Source of the DNA: Bradyrhizobium sediminis
Lineage (GTDB): Bacteria > Pseudomonadota > Alphaproteobacteria > Rhizobiales > Xanthobacteraceae
DNA length: 64,000 nucleotides
Assembly: GCF_018736085.1 (NCBI RefSeq)
Contig: NZ_CP076134.1
Span: 3,792,501-3,856,500, forward strand
Reading direction: 5' to 3'
Part shown: positions 2,922 to 16,977 of the stretch, one piece after another
Layout of the letters: each line of letters begins with the position of its first letter
Numbering within the stretch: the stretch's first letter is position 1
Program-made: the position numbers and the translations under genes
The notes under the pieces: model-generated
What the model was told of the DNA's origin: nothing
The model's database searches: none
What the model saw: the letters and a program-made list of their open reading frames with translations, nothing else

Positions 2922-4770
<1,849 letters not shown>

Positions 4771-8062: not shown

Positions 8063-9712
8063 ATGTCATCCATCACGACTTCGGCCATCGATACGCCCTT
8101 GCGGCGCTCGGTGGAGCGGACATGCGACGACCTCGCCATCCTTGTGCTGGCGGTGATCGGGCTGATCGCTGGCCTGACGTTCCGCGACTATGGACTAGGC
8201 TGGGACGACTATACGCACGCCGAATATGCCGACCTGCTGCTGCGCATGTATGGGTCCGGTTTCAAGGACACCGCAGCCCTGTCGTTCGCCAACCTCTATA
8301 TGTATGGCGGCGGCTTCGACATGGCGGCCGCACTGCTGCACAAGATCATCCCGCTGGACCTGTTTGAAACCCGCCGCCTGCTCGGCGCCGTCGTCGGCCT
8401 GATCGGTCTTGCGGTGACGTGGCGGCTTGGCCGGCGTGTCGGCGGCCCGCTGGCCGGACTGGCAACGCTGCTGCTGCTGGCGCTGTGCCCGACCTTCTAC
8501 GGGCACATGTTCATGAATCCGAAGGATGCGCCATTCGCGGTTTCGATGATGATCCTGATGCTCGGCCTCGTCCGCCTGGCTCAGGAATACCCCTCGCCCT
8601 CGCCGCGCACCGTTCTGATCGTAGGGATCGGCGCGGGCCTGTCGATCGGGTCGCGGATTCTCGGCGGGCTGGCCCTGGTCTATGCCGCGGTCGGCTTTGT
8701 TCCGCTGTTGCTCGAGGAGATTCACAGGCAAGGCGCGCGTGAAGCCGCTCGCCGCTTTGCCCATGTCGTGTACATGCTGCTGCCCGGCCTGGTTTTCGGC
8801 TATCTCGTGATGGGGCTGATCTGGCCGTGGTCGATCATGGAGCCGGGCAATCCCTTCCAGGCCCTGACCTATTTCTCGAACTTCTTCGAGAAGCCGTGGA
8901 AGGAAATGTTCGGTGGCGCGCTGGTGTCGGTACCGGACATGCCATGGTCGTATCTGCCGACGCTGTTCGCCCTGCAGCTTCCCGAAATCCTGCTGGGTCT
9001 TGCCGCTGTCGGTGTCGTTGGTACGTTCATGTCGCTGTCGCGCGGCGGTGTGCCGGCCCGCCGCAAGACCATCCTGCTGATGCTCACGCTCGCGGCGACG
9101 CTGCCGCTGGTGGTGGCGATGGTGAAGCGCCCGGCGCTCTACAACGGCATTCGCCATTTCATATTCGTCATCCCGCCGATGGCCGTACTTGCAGGCGCAG
9201 CCTTCGCGTGGGGAATGAACTGGCTCAAGACGAACGGCCGCAGCTGGCAGCCCGTCGCCGTGGCCATATTCACGTTCGGCTTGCTGCTGCCGCTCGGCGA
9301 AATGATCCGGCTGCATCCCTACCAGTACACCCACTTCAACCATGTCGCGGGCACGGTTCGCGGCGCCACCGATCTGTTCATGCTGGATTACTGGGGTCTC
9401 GCGCTGAAGCAGGCCTCCGACGGCCTGCGCGAGGAAATCGTCGAACGGCAGGAAGCGCCGCCCAGGGGACGCAAATGGAAGGTCGCGGTATGCGGCCCGC
9501 AACGCCCCGCCCAGGTCGCGCTCGGCCCCGACTTCACGATCGGCTGGGACGCAAATGCCGCCGACTTCGCCATGACGCTCGGCGAGTTCTACTGCAAGGG
9601 ACTGACCGCGCCGGTCATGGTCGAGATCAAGCGCGACGACGTGGTGTTTGCCCGCGTCTACGACATCCGCGGCCGCAGCATTTCCAGCCTGCTGGCCATT
9701 CCGGCGCCATAA
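8063..9712 (+). CDS. GT39-like (GT-C fold) membrane glycosyltransferase
   Basis: This 549-residue integral membrane protein has about ten or more hydrophobic helices. An acidic motif lies in the first extracytoplasmic loop (FRDYGLGWDDYTHAEYADLL), as in dolichyl-/polyprenyl-phosphate-sugar-dependent GT-C transferases of the GT39/ArnT type. The C-terminal ~100 residues form a soluble domain. Enzymes of this kind move a sugar from a lipid-phosphate donor to lipid, glycan or protein on the periplasmic side; acceptor and sugar cannot be read here. ATG at 8063 is chosen because the first hydrophobic helix follows at normal distance. ATG at 7991 is possible, but its 24 extra residues are basic and look non-coding. 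The gene stands alone, followed by a small RNA-like cassette. Confidence 0.8.
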   Translation: MSSITTSAIDTPLRRSVERTCDDLAILVLAVIGLIAGLTFRDYGLGWDDYTHAEYADLLLRMYGSGFKDTAALSFANLYMYGGGFDMAAALLHKIIPLDLFETRRLLGAVVGLIGLAVTWRLGRRVGGPLAGLATLLLLALCPTFYGHMFMNPKDAPFAVSMMILMLGLVRLAQEYPSPSPRTVLIVGIGAGLSIGSRILGGLALVYAAVGFVPLLLEEIHRQGAREAARRFAHVVYMLLPGLVFGYLVMGLIWPWSIMEPGNPFQALTYFSNFFEKPWKEMFGGALVSVPDMPWSYLPTLFALQLPEILLGLAAVGVVGTFMSLSRGGVPARRKTILLMLTLAATLPLVVAMVKRPALYNGIRHFIFVIPPMAVLAGAAFAWGMNWLKTNGRSWQPVAVAIFTFGLLLPLGEMIRLHPYQYTHFNHVAGTVRGATDLFMLDYWGLALKQASDGLREEIVERQEAPPRGRKWKVAVCGPQRPAQVALGPDFTIGWDANAADFAMTLGEFYCKGLTAPVMVEIKRDDVVFARVYDIRGRSISSLLAIPAP

Positions 9713-9741
9713 GGCGGCAACCTCGACCGCAGCCACAAGAA

Positions 9742-9769
9742 TTGAAAATTCGAGATTTCAGTGTAGTAT
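9742..9769 (+). promoter_or_regulatory. Sigma70-type promoter of candidate sRNA copy A
   Basis: The -35 box TTGAAA (9742-9747) and -10 box TAGTAT (9764-9769) are separated by 16 bases. The same arrangement recurs at 14603-14631, with TTGAAA and TGGTAT 17 bases apart. Conservation of both boxes between copies while the spacer diverges supports a functional promoter. Transcription would start near 9776. Confidence 0.6.
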
Positions 9770-9775
9770 TGCCGC

Positions 9776-9832
9776 CAACAACCTCTGCACTACGAATCAA
9801 AACGCCGCCCAATCCCGGGCGGCGTTTTTTGT
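9776..9832 (+). ncRNA. Candidate small RNA, copy A
   Basis: A roughly 55-60 nt transcript would start near 9776, contain the unstructured segment ACCTCTGCACTACGAATC, and end in a strong intrinsic terminator. The unstructured part is almost identical in copy B at 14638-14692 (CTCTGCACTACGAATC is fully conserved), whereas DNA outside promoter, body and terminator is unrelated. No open reading frame fits. The layout of own promoter, single-stranded seed-like stretch and Rho-independent terminator is that of a trans-acting sRNA. Multi-copy sRNA families are known in Bradyrhizobium, but I cannot assign this to a named one. It could also be a mobile repeat that carries a terminator. Confidence 0.6.
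9803..9830 (+). terminator. Rho-independent terminator of sRNA copy A
   Basis: A perfect 8-bp stem CGCCGCCC / GGGCGGCG (9803-9810 and 9817-9824) has loop AATCCC and is followed by six T. The flanking AAAA and TTTT extend the stem. It would also stop read-through from the glycosyltransferase gene. Confidence 0.85.
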
Positions 9833-10010
9833 TGTCGTGCGGTGAAGGTCGCACAACTCGCAATTCAAGATTGGGCGACGCCGCCTGCGGCGGCAGTTGC
9901 CAGCAACATAATGCCTGGCGCCGAGGCCGCCATGCAGGAAAATTCGTCGGAAATTAACCCAAACCACCGACATTGCCGGCCGCGACAAAAAAGTGCCGAT
10001 TGGGGGCTGC

Positions 10011-11411
10011 ATGGCGATTCTTTCTTCACCTTTCCGTTCTTCCACGACGACGGTCCGTCGCGCAGCCGACGCCGCGTTGGCGGCGGCCCAACTGGCCGAA
10101 CTCGAGGCGCGCGACCAGGCCCTGGTTGCGTGTATCGACGCCATGATCGATGGCCGCCTCGACGTGGAGCGACCGGCGGCGAAGGATCCCTTGTCTGACG
10201 CCATCGTCCGGCTGCTGGAACGACTGGCCTCGAGCGCATCCCGCGACCTCGACCGCATCGTCGATCTCAGCATTCAAGGAAGCGAGACCGCGATCTCGAC
10301 CGCCCGCCTGCTCGCGACATCGCGCGAGGTCGACAAGCGCACCCAGTCGCTGGCTGCCGCGAGCGAGGAAATGGTGGCGTCGATCGGTCAGATCCGGACC
10401 ACCGCACAGGCCGCAACGGGCGACGCCGCTGAAATGCGCGCCAGCGCCGAGCGCGGCATGTCGACCGCCGGTTCCGCGTCGACGGCCATGGGCCGCGTCA
10501 GCACCACCGCAAATCTGGCGTCGGAGAAGATCATTGCCTTGAACGAGGCATCCGAGGCGATCGGAACCATCGTGGGTTCGATCGATGCGATCGCCAAACA
10601 GACCAACCTTCTGGCGCTGAATGCAACCATCGAGGCCGCACGGGCCGGCGAGGCAGGCAAAGGCTTTGCCGTCGTGGCGACGGAGGTAAAGAGCCTGTCG
10701 CAGCAGACCAGCCGCGCCACCGTCGATATCCGGACCCGCATCGACCAGCTGCGTGTCGACATCCACACCATTGTCGAGGCGATGTCCGACTGCACGAGAG
10801 CAGCGGAGGAAAGCCGCGATGTCGTGACATCGCTCGGTGACGCGATGGTCGGGGTCAGCAAGCAGGTATCCAGCGTCACGACCGGCATGGACGAAATCGC
10901 CAATATCCTCAATCAGCAGACCGATGCGTCACGCGAAATCGCTCAAGGCGTCTCCTCCATCGCCGCCATGACGCAGCAGAGCGTCGAGCAGGTGGCGGCC
11001 ATTTCCAGCCAGATCGACGTCGTCCACAGCCTGGTGGGAGAGGAGATTCAGAACGTTTCTAGATTTTCGTTCGACAACAAGATTCCCCGTCTCGCCAAGG
11101 CGGACCACGTGATCTGGAAAAAGCGTCTCGCGGACATGGCGGTCGGACGCGTCAAATTGAAACCGGATGAACTGGCGGATCACCATTCCTGCCGTCTCGG
11201 AAAATGGTACTACGGCGACGCCTCAGGCGCCTCGCGAAGCCATCGTGCGTTCGGCCTGCTCGAAAAACCTCACGCGCTGGTCCATCAGCACGGCAAGCAG
11301 GCGGCGAAATTGTTCGCCGCAGGCGATCTTCCGGGCGCGCTGAAGGAAATCCTGGATGTGGAAGCCGCGTCGAAAGACGTCTTGCGGCTTCTGGACGAAC
11401 TGGACAAATAG
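10011..11411 (+). CDS. Soluble methyl-accepting chemotaxis protein with C-terminal CZB domain
   Basis: This 466-residue chemoreceptor lacks a transmembrane segment and is therefore cytoplasmic. After an N-terminal helical region (about 1-110) comes the coiled-coil signalling domain, with the conserved hairpin tip [20 protein letters not shown] and following [17 protein letters not shown]. The C-terminal ~100 residues form a CZB (chemoreceptor zinc-binding) domain. Candidate ligands are His in [11 protein letters not shown], His and Cys in [13 protein letters not shown], and His in [15 protein letters not shown] proteins sense zinc or oxidants such as hypochlorous acid through the zinc-bound Cys. 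ATG at 10011 follows GGGGGC; an in-frame GTG at 9993 is less likely. No CheA or CheW is adjacent, so it is an orphan receptor. It lies between the two copies of the candidate sRNA cassette. Confidence 0.92.
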
Positions 11412-11459
11412 TACGATCCTCGATTTGAGAGAACTACCATCAAGGAAAGTGCGAGCGCG

Positions 11460-11894
11460 GTGGCCGCTCTACTCAAACCAATTCTGGAAGCTTGGCTTCA
11501 TCGAGACGAAACGAAAGCGGCGAAAGCGGCTGGCAGCCTCACGTTCTGGCGCAGCGGAATGCTTAAGCAATTGGAGGCAATTGCCAACGACACGGCCACG
11601 GCGAAGACAATGACCGAGTTGCGAAAGAATTTCGAAGAAACACAAAGCAGCGTGAACGAGACAATGATCCGGCTGAATGAACTCCGTAGCAAGCTTGCCG
11701 GGTCGAAGGTGGCGCGGCAAATCGACCTGATCCTAAATGACTTCCACTATGGGAAAAGCATGATCCGCTCAGAGATTGAAATGATCTTGGAATTCGGGCC
11801 AAACGAGTGCGATCGGGCACGACATGTCTGCAACAACATCAAAACGCTCAATTCGGAACTGGAGAGGCTTCATCGTATGGTCTACGAGAAATGA
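11460..11894 (+). CDS. Hypothetical helical protein
   Basis: I do not recognise this 144-residue protein. It has no signal peptide or membrane helix and is predicted by eye to be mostly helical, with heptad-like stretches (MTELRKNFEETQSSVNETMI, NNIKTLNSELERLHRMVYEK). The only start in frame is GTG at 11460 with AAGGAA about 12 bases upstream, which is weak. Codon use and base composition are distinctly more AT-rich than the chemoreceptor gene 48 bases upstream, suggesting acquired DNA. The next gene follows after 56 bases on the same strand, so the two may be an operon. Confidence 0.6.
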   Translation: MAALLKPILEAWLHRDETKAAKAAGSLTFWRSGMLKQLEAIANDTATAKTMTELRKNFEETQSSVNETMIRLNELRSKLAGSKVARQIDLILNDFHYGKSMIRSEIEMILEFGPNECDRARHVCNNIKTLNSELERLHRMVYEK

Positions 11895-11950
11895 TGCCGC
11901 TCAGAGGCAAATAGAGGCCATTATGGGCCGTTGGACCTTCGAGGTGGATC

Positions 11951-12673
11951 ATGCGCAGACCACGGGAAATGACGGAATCATTGCCGGGCGACGCCTGGGT
12001 AAGGCTTGCTCCGGGTGAGTTCTTCGAGTTTCACGTTGACCGGCCGCTCAACCCGAGCGTTGGAGAGCTTCAGCAATGGCTGCGCCAGATAAGAGGCGGT
12101 GTCCTCTCCACGTCCTTCGGCATTGAAAATGAGCTGACATTGCTCGCCCTGGCAAACATGTTCGGAACGAACGATCATGGAGCGGTGAATCGCGAATATT
12201 ATGAACAGGAGCAAGCTTGGCGCGCTGAGCAGGGGCTGGAAGCTAAGATTGATCGCGTTAAGCCAATCATCCGAAGCCGTCGGGACAAAGAGATCGCCGA
12301 TACCATCATTCATAAACTGGCGGAATACCGCGAGTTGAGGAACCTACTCGCACATTATCCGGGCTGGATCGAACCCGTGAACGACCACGAGACGAAACTT
12401 ACGGTGGGACTACGACTTTTCATTGCAGATCGGGTCCATCAGTGGGAAGTGGATACACCACAGGCAACCCATTGGGCTGAAATGCTGTCGTTCGTGCGCG
12501 TCTCGGTGGAGAACGTTCGACGTGAAATTGTTGGCGCGCCGCCATTGGCGCCGGACGGCTCACCGCCGCCAGCCGAGTCCGTTATCGGAAACGGAAATAC
12601 CAGCCAAGCCGTAACGTTTACGGGACGCAAGGAATTACGCGGAATTGCAGTGACGGCACTTAGGGCGGATTAG
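11951..12673 (+). CDS. Hypothetical protein with HEPN-like RX4H motif
   Basis: This 240-residue soluble protein matches no family I can name. A helical central region contains YRELRNLLAHYPGW, where Arg130 and His135 form an R-x4-H motif on a helix, the hallmark of HEPN nucleases. Upstream helices (IENELTLLALANMFG) resemble the first helices of HEPN-like folds. Many non-nuclease proteins share the RNxLAH pattern, so RNase activity is only a possibility. Start ATG 11951 has GAGGTGG close upstream; ATG 11969 is an alternative. The Gly/Asn/Pro-rich tail looks disordered. Composition is AT-richer than core genes here. It follows a small helical protein gene with 56 bases between them, an arrangement that could be a toxin and partner pair, which is speculation. 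Confidence 0.6.
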   Translation: MRRPREMTESLPGDAWVRLAPGEFFEFHVDRPLNPSVGELQQWLRQIRGGVLSTSFGIENELTLLALANMFGTNDHGAVNREYYEQEQAWRAEQGLEAKIDRVKPIIRSRRDKEIADTIIHKLAEYRELRNLLAHYPGWIEPVNDHETKLTVGLRLFIADRVHQWEVDTPQATHWAEMLSFVRVSVENVRREIVGAPPLAPDGSPPPAESVIGNGNTSQAVTFTGRKELRGIAVTALRAD

Positions 12674-12734
12674 AGCCAAAGGCGCAATCCGCCGCCCAGC
12701 TAACGCCAACGTTGCTTGTGCTATCCTGCGCCGC

Positions 12735-12850
12735 TTGTCGAACTATCTTCGCGCGTTTGTTCCGGGCGGGTGCTCGTTCTTCACGATCGACCTTTTGGAA
12801 CGGCGAAAAAGCCTGCTCGTCGATCGCATCGCTATCTTGCGTAAGGTGCT
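12735..12850 (+). pseudogene. Remnant of a REP-associated tyrosine transposase (RAYT)
   Basis: The frame beginning at 12735 reads NYLRAFVPGGCSFFTIDLLE followed by RRKSLLVDRIAILRKVL. This is the characteristic N-terminus of TnpA-REP (Y1_Tnp/IS200-like) transposases, which bind and mobilise REP palindromes. After about 39 residues the resemblance stops and the frame runs into unrelated sequence with a stop at 12942-12944. The HUH and catalytic Tyr motifs are absent. It sits in the 525-base gap 12674-13198, where I see no other gene. Confidence 0.6.
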
Positions 12851-13198
12851 TGCCATGTGCATTGGGGCTGTCGCTGGCGCGGCGGATCACGCCTTCGGCT
12901 CCAATCCGCCCTACGGGCTGGCCGGGATGCGACAGGTCAACTAGTGCACGGTCACCGTAATTCCTCTTCGGTGAAGTGCTCGCGTACCTGAGGGCGGTTA
13001 GCATGGGTCGCCCGGCTCCGGGGCGTTCCTCTTACTAAGCTATTCCCTGGGCTGCCACGGATGTGGCTAAAAGGACAGTAACCAAAATATCGCACTGAAA
13101 GATGTCACACTCCCCGGAAATCGCTTGCTTTTAAGGGGTTTGCGCTTGGGACGCTATTCCGACTTGCCGGAAGTCATGCCTTATTGGGGGGCGAAAGC

Positions 13199-13816
13199 AT
13201 GGCGAGTGAAGGGGACACGCTGGCTTTCAGGCAGGCGCTGATGAAGCTAGCTTTCGAAACAGATGACGAAAAGTCTAGATGGCCGTGGGTCGCCCTTGCT
13301 GTGGTGATCGCGTTCGTCGTTGCTGCTTGGATTTCCTTCCCTAACGAAATCATTTCGTTCCTGAAGGAAGGCAAGGAATTGCTTGCCAGTAAGGAAGGCA
13401 GCGGCAAGCCTGGGCAAGAGAGCAAGAACAGCATGTGTAACGGGTTTATCGTTGTGAACTGCTCCGCTGAGCCAAAAATTGTTCAAGGCAACCCGCCGGA
13501 AAAAACTGCGCAGGCTCCTCTGGAGGCGGAAAACAAGATTGCGCCGCCGTTGCAGTACGCGCCTGTGGTCGCTCAAAGCCAGCCAGGTCGATCATCTCCG
13601 CAACCTTCCAAGGTCAGGAAGCCCGAGGCGAAGAACGCACTGGCAGAGTCTGATGCCCCTTTGTATCGCTATATTGGCCCAAAAGATGATCTGACATTGC
13701 TCGGAATTGATCGCTTCAAGCCTTCGGTAAACTTATGCGCGTTGAAGAAACATGTGACTTGCTACATGCCGCCCGGCTTCGGCAGGGAGTCAATCGTGCG
13801 GGAGCAGGAGGACTAA
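13199..13816 (+). CDS. Hypothetical single-pass membrane protein
   Basis: This 205-residue protein has no recognised family. A cytoplasmic N-terminus of about 27 residues (TLAFRQALMKLAFETDDEKS) precedes a transmembrane helix (PWVALAVVIAFVVAAWISF). A periplasmic part follows with four Cys (MCNGFIVVNCSAE and LCALKKHVTCYMPPGFGRES), which may form two disulfides. A Pro/Gln-rich linker separates the Cys pairs. ATG 13199 is preferred because GGGGGGCGAAAGC precedes it. Base composition is AT-richer than the flanking core genes, in line with an accessory block spanning 11.4-14.6 kb. Predicted topology is N-in, C-out. Confidence 0.65.
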   Translation: MASEGDTLAFRQALMKLAFETDDEKSRWPWVALAVVIAFVVAAWISFPNEIISFLKEGKELLASKEGSGKPGQESKNSMCNGFIVVNCSAEPKIVQGNPPEKTAQAPLEAENKIAPPLQYAPVVAQSQPGRSSPQPSKVRKPEAKNALAESDAPLYRYIGPKDDLTLLGIDRFKPSVNLCALKKHVTCYMPPGFGRESIVREQED

Positions 13817-14115
13817 CTTCCCTTTTGATGTCGTCACTGTAGCACTCGTCTCTCAATCCTAGCACTTCGGTGACAGTGCACTTTATTTGCCTTTCCCCAG
13901 CGAGCTTCCACGCTGGAATTTCGGGAATTTCGGTGACCGTGCAGTCCAGTACACTCAATTTCGATTCGACCAGTCAATTGAACGCGCTGTCACCGTATTC
14001 CAATCGAAGGAAGCACAAAGCGCCGGTTCTTCTCGGTGCTGCATCAGGGGGCGATTAAATCGCCGGTGGATGCGGTGAGAGCAGCTGTTGTGGCAGAGCA
14101 ACGACGGGAGCTAGG
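13817..14115. other. Non-coding spacer in accessory block
   Basis: About 300 bases without a credible gene. Short repeats of CGGTGAC-like sequence occur (TTCGGTGACAGTGCA near 13865 and TTCGGTGACCGTGCA near 13928, about 64 bases apart), an imperfect direct repeat that could be a regulatory site or an insertion trace. Confidence 0.4.
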
Positions 14116-14577
14116 ATGACGATGCTAGTCAATGCATATTATTGGTCGCAAATCGCTCTAGCTATTATAGCGGCTGTGGCCGCAATTGCCGCTTACGTGC
14201 AGATTCAGACGTTCAAGCGATTTGAATTAATGAAGATGTTAGAAACGCCTCATGTAAAGGCGGCGCGCCAAGCCCTCTTTCTGGCAAGTCGAAAGCATCC
14301 AGGCGAGAAATGGTGGAACACGGACGATCCAGCATTCGATAAAGAGTTAGAGCAAGCGGCGGCGACCATAGCCGGCTCATTTGACATAGTCGGAATAGTT
14401 GCCAAAGGCGCCAATCGTCGATTCTTCCGAAGCCATTGGGGCCATAGCATTCGCTGGACCCATAAGGCTTTGGAAGGGTTTCTGATGGACCGCCGAACCC
14501 AGGCCGGGGGAAATCCAGGAGCCTTTTCAGGGTTTGAAGGACTGTATGCGGAAGCCACCCGTCTCCGCCCAAATTAG
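14116..14577 (+). CDS. Hypothetical membrane-anchored protein, DUF4760-like
   Basis: This 153-residue protein starts with a hydrophobic helix (YYWSQIALAIIAAVAAIAAY). A soluble helical domain follows, carrying MLETPHVKAARQALF, a GEKWWNTDDPAFDKELEQAA segment and IAGSFDIVGIVAKGANRRFF. The order of helix, short linker, then a domain with Asp/Trp-rich and FDIVG-like motifs resembles DUF4760-type proteins, whose function is unknown, but I am not certain. GGGAGCTAGG precedes ATG 14116. It closes the AT-richer accessory block and its stop lies 25 bases before the second candidate sRNA promoter. Confidence 0.6.
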   Translation: MTMLVNAYYWSQIALAIIAAVAAIAAYVQIQTFKRFELMKMLETPHVKAARQALFLASRKHPGEKWWNTDDPAFDKELEQAAATIAGSFDIVGIVAKGANRRFFRSHWGHSIRWTHKALEGFLMDRRTQAGGNPGAFSGFEGLYAEATRLRPN

Positions 14578-14602
14578 GACACTACCCCCCCAGCCACGAG
14601 AA

Positions 14603-14631
14603 TTGAAAGTTCTCGAATTCCGGTGTGGTAT
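14603..14631 (+). promoter_or_regulatory. Sigma70-type promoter of candidate sRNA copy B
   Basis: The -35 box TTGAAA (14603-14608) and -10 box TGGTAT (14626-14631) are 17 bases apart and match copy A box for box. Start of transcription is expected near 14638. Confidence 0.6.
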
Positions 14632-14637
14632 TTTTTC

Positions 14638-14692
14638 CAACAATCTCTGCACTACGAATCCAAACGCCGCCCAATTCCGGGCGGCGTTTCTT
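14638..14692 (+). ncRNA. Candidate small RNA, copy B
   Basis: This is the second copy of the short transcript described at 9776-9832. The body (CAACAATCTCTGCACTACGA continuing into ATCCAAACG) differs from copy A at only a few positions, and the conserved core CTCTGCACTACGAATC is unchanged. It ends in the same terminator stem. Two copies in the same orientation about 4.9 kb apart, each with its own promoter, suggest paralogous sRNA genes produced by duplication or by insertion of the accessory block. Confidence 0.6.
14665..14692 (+). terminator. Rho-independent terminator of sRNA copy B
   Basis: An 8-bp stem CGCCGCCC / GGGCGGCG (14665-14672 and 14679-14686) has loop AATTCC and is followed by TTTCTT. 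The stem is identical to that of copy A; only the loop differs. Confidence 0.85.
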
Positions 14693-14779
14693 GTTCGGCA
14701 GTTCGCCGCCTCCTGGCCGATTTGCGAAAATCGCCAACTGCTTCGCCGCGCGCGCATGCGAAATCTCACGACCGAGTGC

Positions 14780-15270
14780 GACAAATCAACCCGACGGGCA
14801 AGATTCCGCTTAACCCGTCGGGCAAATCATCACTATAGCTCCGCGCGTCTCACCCGATGAGAGGGGCGGATCGCGATCGTCACGAACGCGCGGTGGGATG
14901 CGGTGGACGCGGAAGTTGCGACTGACGAGCGCAACTCGAGCGGACGGTGAAGACGTGTGGTCCTGACGCCCCGACGCTGGTGTCAAGTTCGCGGGAAGCA
15001 AAACTTCCCGCGGATGACGGTGGCAAGAAAGCCCGGTCACCGGGGAGAGCTCGGAGTAAGCCGTAAAACCATTGCGCAGGGAAGGCCGGATTGCCTCCGC
15101 TGAACCTATATGCTCGTGTGCGTTTTTCCCAATAACAATTGCACACGGAACCGCGGGTGCAGCGCGCACCCGGTCTTCCCTGCGCCCTCTTCCTTCAGAG
15201 GGTGGCCATCGACGCAAAGCTCGGACGCATCGCGCCGCGACAATGCGGACGCACGCCCTGTCGCTGTTTG
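14780..15270. repeat. Dispersed non-coding repeat often misread as short genes
   Basis: This 0.5-kb stretch carries sequence whose minus-strand translation (AGKTGCALHPRFRVQLLLG, YRFSGGNPAFPAQWFYGLL, LDTSVGASGPHVFTVRS) is familiar from many small hypothetical proteins annotated in Bradyrhizobium and related genomes. The pieces lie in several frames with no ribosome binding sites, so I regard it as a multi-copy non-coding repeat. It begins with an inverted pair CCCGACGGG / CCCGTCGGG (about 14790 and 14813). No real gene is supported between 14694 and 15485. Recognition is from memory. Confidence 0.65.
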
Positions 15271-16889: not shown

Positions 16890-16910
16890 TGCGATCTTTC
16901 CCTGGGTTAC

Positions 16911-16957
16911 GGCATGATCCCGAAAAGTGGAAACCGGTTTTCGGAAAGGATCATGCC
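16911..16957. repeat. 47-bp palindrome (GGCATGATCC type)
   Basis: The segment begins GGCATGATCCCGAAAAGTGG and ends CCGGTTTTCGGAAAGGATCATGCC with the centre at AAACCGGTTT. It is an almost perfect inverted repeat of a kind scattered through rhizobial intergenic regions. It lies in the upstream region of the M20 peptidase gene. Confidence 0.8.
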
Positions 16958-16977
16958 CGACTAAGAAGGTAAGCGAC

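Follow-up and report, generated by a model that had tools for sequence, protein, structure and literature searches.

A 64,000-nucleotide stretch of Bradyrhizobium sediminis DNA (contig NZ_CP076134.1, positions 3,792,501 to 3,856,500, here called the window) appears to carry two small RNA (sRNA) genes of the BjsR3 family, an orthologue (copy A, ~9777-9830) and an extra copy in a 3.3-kb insertion (copy B, ~14639-14692), whose RNA probably acts in trans by pairing through an open arm. BjsR3 was picked from the transcription starts mapped by differential RNA sequencing in the soybean symbiont B. diazoefficiens (B. japonicum) USDA 110 and was detected by northern blot; that report places its start at 3,384,003 on the minus strand, with an RpoD promoter (PMC5082802, PLoS One 2016), and gives transcription, reported by others, for this strain only. 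Window positions 9730-9850 match genome G080 at 3,383,949-3,384,030 on the minus strand (BLAST E 1.6e-10), spanning the published BjsR3 start. We take G080 to be USDA 110 because its nifH gene ends at 1,929,451, which agrees with the published 5' end of BjsR8 at 1,929,431, over the nifH 3' untranslated region (PMC5082802). Counted by hand on the alignment, the published BjsR3 start (3,384,003 minus, position 3004 of locus L067) is the first A of AACTACCTCTGCAC (AACTACC) and stands opposite 9777 and 14639, so that the starts guessed in a first-pass annotation of this DNA, 9776 and 14638, were one base off. That a Bradyrhizobium genome holds a pair of related sRNA genes, each with a promoter and a terminator of its own, as that annotation proposed, is supported by this homology and by conservation; the named family to which it could not match them is BjsR3, as the match runs over the mapped BjsR3 start on the correct strand.

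Judged by homology in promoter, seed and terminator, both cassettes are BjsR3 family genes. Covariance model R1, which has 92 positions and was built from 41 copies (alignment A1), scores 105.5 bits for copy A, 93.5 for copy B and 96.2 for L067 over positions 1-92, all three being among its 41 sequences. The likeness to BjsR3 of USDA 110 extends to genome place, strand, base-exact aligned start, RpoD-type promoter, terminator stem and a site behind a conserved aldolase gene; the differences are the second copy and the loss of the aldolase gene in the genome that holds the window. The BjsR3 transcript in USDA 110 is already known, and what is new is that a genome carries a second copy, that the gene next to it has been lost and that the family spreads through the whole genus; extra copies are named for BjsR5, 6, 7 and 10, but not for BjsR3, in the accessible part of the published account (PMC5082802). 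An orphan pair thereby gains a name and an experimentally supported relative. Our literature search did not find the name BjsR3 beyond PMC5082802, Rfam 15 gave no plus-strand match at either cassette up to E 1, and a tRNA/tmRNA search of the window found none. Two Rfam candidates were rejected, BSR0602 (Brucella sRNA 0602, RF02609), a weak 22.4-bit match that includes the CGCCGCCC hairpin but lies on the opposite strand and has a gathering score of 191 (<12% reached), and Methylosinus-1, also on the opposite strand and at <14% of its gathering score. The parts of the two cassettes are as follows.

9742..9747, + strand: copy A -35 box TTGAAA (consensus scan; TTGAA mean major-base frequency 0.96 in 41 aligned copies)
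9764..9769, + strand: copy A -10 box TAGTAT, spacer 16 (consensus scan; family pattern TGTA..T)
9777..9830, + strand: copy A predicted sRNA, ~54 nt (start inferred from the aligned USDA 110 BjsR3 start)
9782..9790, + strand: copy A seed CCTCTGCAC, predicted single-stranded (family columns 59-67; unpaired probability)
9800..9827, + strand: copy A terminator stem-loop AAACGCCGCCC-AATCCC-GGGCGGCGTTT, then T tract (hairpin search, terminator scan)
14603..14608, + strand: copy B -35 box TTGAAA (sequence, alignment with the family)
14626..14631, + strand: copy B -10 box TGGTAT after a 17-base spacer (G in place of A, in a column conserved at 0.88)
14639..14692, + strand: copy B predicted sRNA, ~54 nt, with altered seed TCTCTGCAC at 14644-14652 (alignment with the family)
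14662..14689, + strand: copy B terminator stem-loop with interrupted T tract, TTTCTTG (absent from the terminator-scan list)

The cassette pair is a real direct repeat with a score far beyond chance. Positions 9727-9833 and 14588-14695 are 84.3% identical over 108 bp (115 bits) in the direct-repeat comparison of the window with itself, in which the runner-up reaches 41.9 bits and the best repeat from 20 Markov-1 random windows 40.1. The 16-nt core CTCTGCACTACGAATC, at 9783-9798 and 14645-14660, has no other match in the window at up to 3 mismatches, and at the same tolerance two or more matches occur in 13 of 100 shuffled windows, so the core alone is weak evidence. Exact core sites in the 5.55-Mb genome are two, copies A and B; at up to 3 mismatches there are 24 sites against 9 for the reversed control, and the only real-scoring genome matches (BLAST and model) are A and B, plus one opposite-strand match at A. 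The terminator stem, at up to 2 mismatches, likewise occurs in copies A and B and at no third place in the genome. Two cassettes at 9742-9832 and 14603-14692, each with TTGAAA, a spacer of 16 (A) or 17 (B) and TAGTAT or TGGTAT, were thus correctly recognised at the outset, but the terminator stem is 11 bp long (12 counted in A) and not 8 bp. Single-mismatch core sites in relatives (L033, L035 and L036) were discarded, having no BLAST match to the cassette.

Conservation across relatives picks out the proposed functional parts. The profile and A1 comprise 41 of 46 extracted copies; L063, L064, L070, L071 and the second L079 match were left out as coming from other contexts or having lost the promoter, and all five are still found by R1. 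One comparison of relatives' loci skipped the same-place loci L034, L037, L044, L046, L049, L054 and L066 and the loci of the window's own genome. Mean major-base frequency in the 41 copies is 0.96 for TTGAA, 0.70 for the promoter spacer, 0.77 for the -10 region and 0.60 from there to the start; within the RNA, CTCTGCAC stands at 0.98, the 9 bases after it at 0.73, the two stem arms at 0.98 and 0.998 and the loop at 0.94, and in the flanks the value is 0.81 for the aldolase end upstream and 0.43 downstream. Copy A, like the USDA 110 gene, deviates at no column conserved at 0.78 or above. That functional parts are kept while the spacer diverges therefore stands for the promoter, which is better kept than the spacer, and for copy A, but not fully for copy B. 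Similarly, the core described at first as fully conserved is so between A and B, but across 99 distinct relatives its conservation narrows to CCTCTRCAC, with columns 59-67 at 0.97-1.00 except column 64 (mostly G or A).

This wider alignment holds 103 matches (99 distinct), for which 100 source loci were supplied, leaving out L229-L233 and most A1 loci. As 75 of the 100 sources (L154-L228) came from a pattern scan that fixed CTCTRCAC and most stem letters, the conservation of these letters is partly built in; the pattern did not constrain column 59 (the first C of the seed), the promoter or the T tract. Of the 1,089 stem cells 99.7% are paired. Among the stem pairs, one takes the forms C-G (78), U-G (13) and U-A (6), and four are changed on both sides, one at a position that the pattern left free and three carried by a single divergent match, L151. 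Structure prediction gives a mean unpaired probability of 0.95 for CUCUGCAC in the copy A seed, and across the family a value for the seed that is 0.89 at the median and nowhere below 0.52 (96 of the 99 sequences scored). In the Afipia loci L154, L157 and L221 the seed is predicted to lie inside a hairpin loop, GUCAG-CCUCUACA-CUGAC, and not in an open arm; as a general feature this was rejected, since Afipia locus L225 is without it.

Although it was described from a single strain, BjsR3 occurs almost throughout the genus and also in neighbouring genera. The covariance-model search of Bradyrhizobium that had been suggested with the first description was run, and R1 at E <=1e-6 finds the family in 263 of 265 genus genomes (our own included) and in all 251 of good quality; a BLAST-type search with window positions 9730-9850 gives matches in 261 of the 265, some of them mainly to the terminator. 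A draw from the bacterial family (296 genomes, 47 genera) yielded strong R1 matches (E <=5e-9, mostly whole-model) in nine other genera, g30, g41, g44, g49 (taken as Afipia), g50, g52, g64, g67 and g70, and weak matches only, or none, in many others of the 47. The pattern scan of named genomes found at least 80 loci in Bradyrhizobium, Afipia, Nitrobacter, Tardiphaga and under coarser labels, which among the matches listed are assemblies named only Xanthobacteraceae, Hyphomicrobiales, Rhizobiales or higher. Outside the genus, the text of the BjsR3 report gives terminator homologues in Rhizobiales and Rhodobacterales (PMC5082802), whereas we find the complete cassette in genomes that bear the labels Afipia, Nitrobacter and Tardiphaga. 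Two R1 matches at E <=1e-6 occur in 7 of the 265 genus genomes, our own included (with stricter filters, and 16 candidates put to the model in each genome). The six others have a second match that retains the terminator and lacks both an intact CCTCTRCAC and the usual promoter letters, so that two copies with a promoter and a near-intact seed are found only in the window genome. In the six loci L326-L331 (G163, G164, G165, G275, G278 and G185) a second BjsR3-type terminator lies ~330-950 bp downstream of the sRNA, with no intact seed and with the family stem letters, except for the outer bases in L326 and L331.

What, then, would the RNA do? Transcription by a sigma-70-type RNA polymerase would begin 7 bases beyond the -10 box and end at the terminator; the product would be a ~54-nt RNA whose 5' arm is open and whose 3' hairpin ends in U. 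We infer that this RNA acts in trans with the help of Hfq, its open 5'-CCUCURCAC-3' pairing with purine-rich GUGYAGAGG on mRNAs near ribosome-binding sites, and that such pairing would lower translation of the paired mRNAs. Two features of this class of sRNA are found here, an accessible conserved seed and a 3' terminator ending in U, in copy B with an interrupted T tract. In five genomes GTGYAGAGG followed by ATG occurs at 38 places against 18 for the reversed control, the excess falling mainly in G484 and G449. Two of the GTGYAGAGG places are the cassettes; one site is present in all five genomes (6 rows), and in the two loci read, those of G000 and G449, it lies antisense to a coding gene which we take to be thiC-like. 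The remaining places were compared by eye.

Several observations weigh against this account. No conserved sense-strand target was seen for GTGYAGAGG near ATG (5 genomes) or for GTGYAGAGGKNGTT (41 genomes) in searches that covered perfect pairing and ATG starts only. GTGYAGAGGKNGTT occurs at 22 places in the 41 genomes against 24 for the reversed control, many of the 22 being the cassettes themselves, and its sole recurrent non-cassette site, shared by six genomes, lies antisense to a gene that resembles transporters (presumably RND-pump-like). In the six lowest-scoring sequences the seed is partly paired in the best structure. The hairpin letters are conserved beyond the needs of pairing, which seed pairing does not explain. 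Finally, copy B deviates at three conserved columns, with G for A in the -10 box (0.88), T for C at the first seed base (0.99) and C for T in the T tract (0.95), and the consensus scan lists neither its promoter nor its terminator.

Titration of a protein or another RNA is the main rival to antisense pairing. Here the open 5' arm or the near-invariant GC hairpin would bind a protein or another small RNA instead of mRNAs directly. Such a role would suit a hairpin that is almost invariant, loop included, in the 41 copies and the failure of the target searches; likewise, termination alone does not, on the sequence comparison, explain the near-invariance of the stem, which is unlike a repeated element because it has no third place in the genome and is thus not a copied terminator here. 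Against this, the 5' seed is equally conserved and mostly open, as base pairing would predict, and we regard titration as unlikely.

The consensus scan finds 2 promoter-like sites in 9600-14800, one of them copy A, against a shuffle mean of 1.8; it yields no more sites than shuffles, and the case therefore rests on conservation and not on consensus. Copy A, whose terminator is listed by the terminator scan, is most likely the working BjsR3 gene, and copy B an extra, weaker or diverging copy. The symmetrical pair first described is thus not what the alignment suggests, given the changes in B at strongly conserved positions that include the -10 box and the first seed base; among 98 sequences copy B alone has a first seed letter other than C. 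Expression of copy B is probably weaker, and the change at the first base of its seed would alter or weaken pairing. Both copies might nevertheless work, as a dosage pair or as two regulators whose target ranges differ through the C-to-U change in the first seed base of B. This would account for a copy B that scores over the whole of R1 (as one of the model's own sequences) and retains the -35 box, the remaining seed and the stem, but -10 box, seed and T tract are all off consensus and among the 265 genomes no other was seen to carry two copies with an intact seed, and we consider it rather unlikely. A two-copy genome with one altered seed base offers a natural test of the role of the seed. 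We would further suggest, as a conjecture only, that BjsR3 serves the Bradyrhizobium-Nitrobacter-Afipia group as a core regulator, present in almost all genomes of the genus and not tied to the gene beside it; both the 9-nt seed and the hairpin letters would then be functional, and the changing seed of the second copy could give a second target range.

The surroundings of the cassettes add to this account.

9722..9744, + strand: probable remnant of a class II aldolase gene, last codons and stop (inferred; aligns with relatives' aldolase 3' ends)
9993..11411, + strand: methyl-accepting chemotaxis protein gene, between the copies (Pfam PF00015, PF13682)
11420..14738, no strand assigned: inserted ~3.3-kb segment holding copy B, between the chemoreceptor and M20 peptidase genes (GC, relatives' stretches)

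In relatives the gene order is mannosyltransferase, aldolase, sRNA, M20 peptidase, with which the window and G080 agree, the window without the aldolase. The class II aldolase gene (PF00596, NF005451) ends just upstream of the sRNA in 9 of 14 loci and in 12 of 20 loci from other genera or contexts, and its stop codon lies at the promoter itself in 19 of 21 loci (in L146 and L150 it lies 77 and 102 bases before the match). The window genome has no close aldolase orthologue, its best relative being 50% identical and located elsewhere. The last aldolase codons look as if they remain upstream of A and, in shorter form, of B: the sequence outside the cassettes, held at first to be unrelated, is alike upstream of the -35 box as far as 9727 and 14588 and resembles these codons. 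In G202, which is 93-96% identical over long shared stretches, a single sRNA copy stands directly behind the mannosyltransferase gene, which makes copy A the orthologue of BjsR3 by position, as it is by sequence. The close association with the aldolase gene is what would be expected if the element were merely the terminator and 3' end of an aldolase transcript, with no independent function. However, the USDA 110 report gives a primary start and a northern signal (PMC5082802). The cassette also persists without the aldolase in the window genome and, by position, in G202, stands behind other genes in L063, L070, L071 and L148, and has a seed better conserved than the adjoining DNA, all of which makes this explanation highly improbable. 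The gene preceding the sRNA in some of these four loci is one that we take to be epimerase-like. In the window genome the sRNA has outlasted the aldolase gene beside it, which points to selection acting on the RNA in its own right.

In 500-bp bins the segment that holds copy B has 53-60% GC, while the seven flanking bins that lie outside 11001-11500 have 60-69%; apart from copy B, nothing in it matches the 20-kb stretches taken from G202, G006 and G194. Being AT-richer and unmatched in these stretches, it might suggest that the direct repeats, with 4.8 kb between them, are the traces of an insertion or a recombination to which sRNA function is incidental. An insertion could account for how B arose, but not for the cassette, which has no hits in plasmids or viral contigs and which relatives without the insertion carry as single copies at the corresponding site of the chromosome. 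The five between-copy proteins scanned (Pfam; four also with NCBIfam and PADLOC) gave no match to an integrase or transposase family, and we give this explanation very little credence. On the ~100 bp compared, copy B may be either a duplicate of A or an import.

The four open reading frames of the insertion (144, 240, 210 and 153 aa) have no NCBIfam family and no Pfam match above cut-off; the 144-aa frame has weak PADLOC hits to LmuB (E 1.8e-4), perhaps reflecting a coiled coil. The chemoreceptor gene also follows the single sRNA copy in G194, and in G202 (L090, 11550-11699) it is reduced behind the sRNA to fragments of 95 and 55 bp, probably by deletion. Further along, between the M20 peptidase and GT87 genes, positions 16905-16965 (+ strand) form a hairpin with a weak match to the Brucella sRNA BASRCI408 (31.8 bits against a gathering score of 398), which is perhaps a repeated palindrome.

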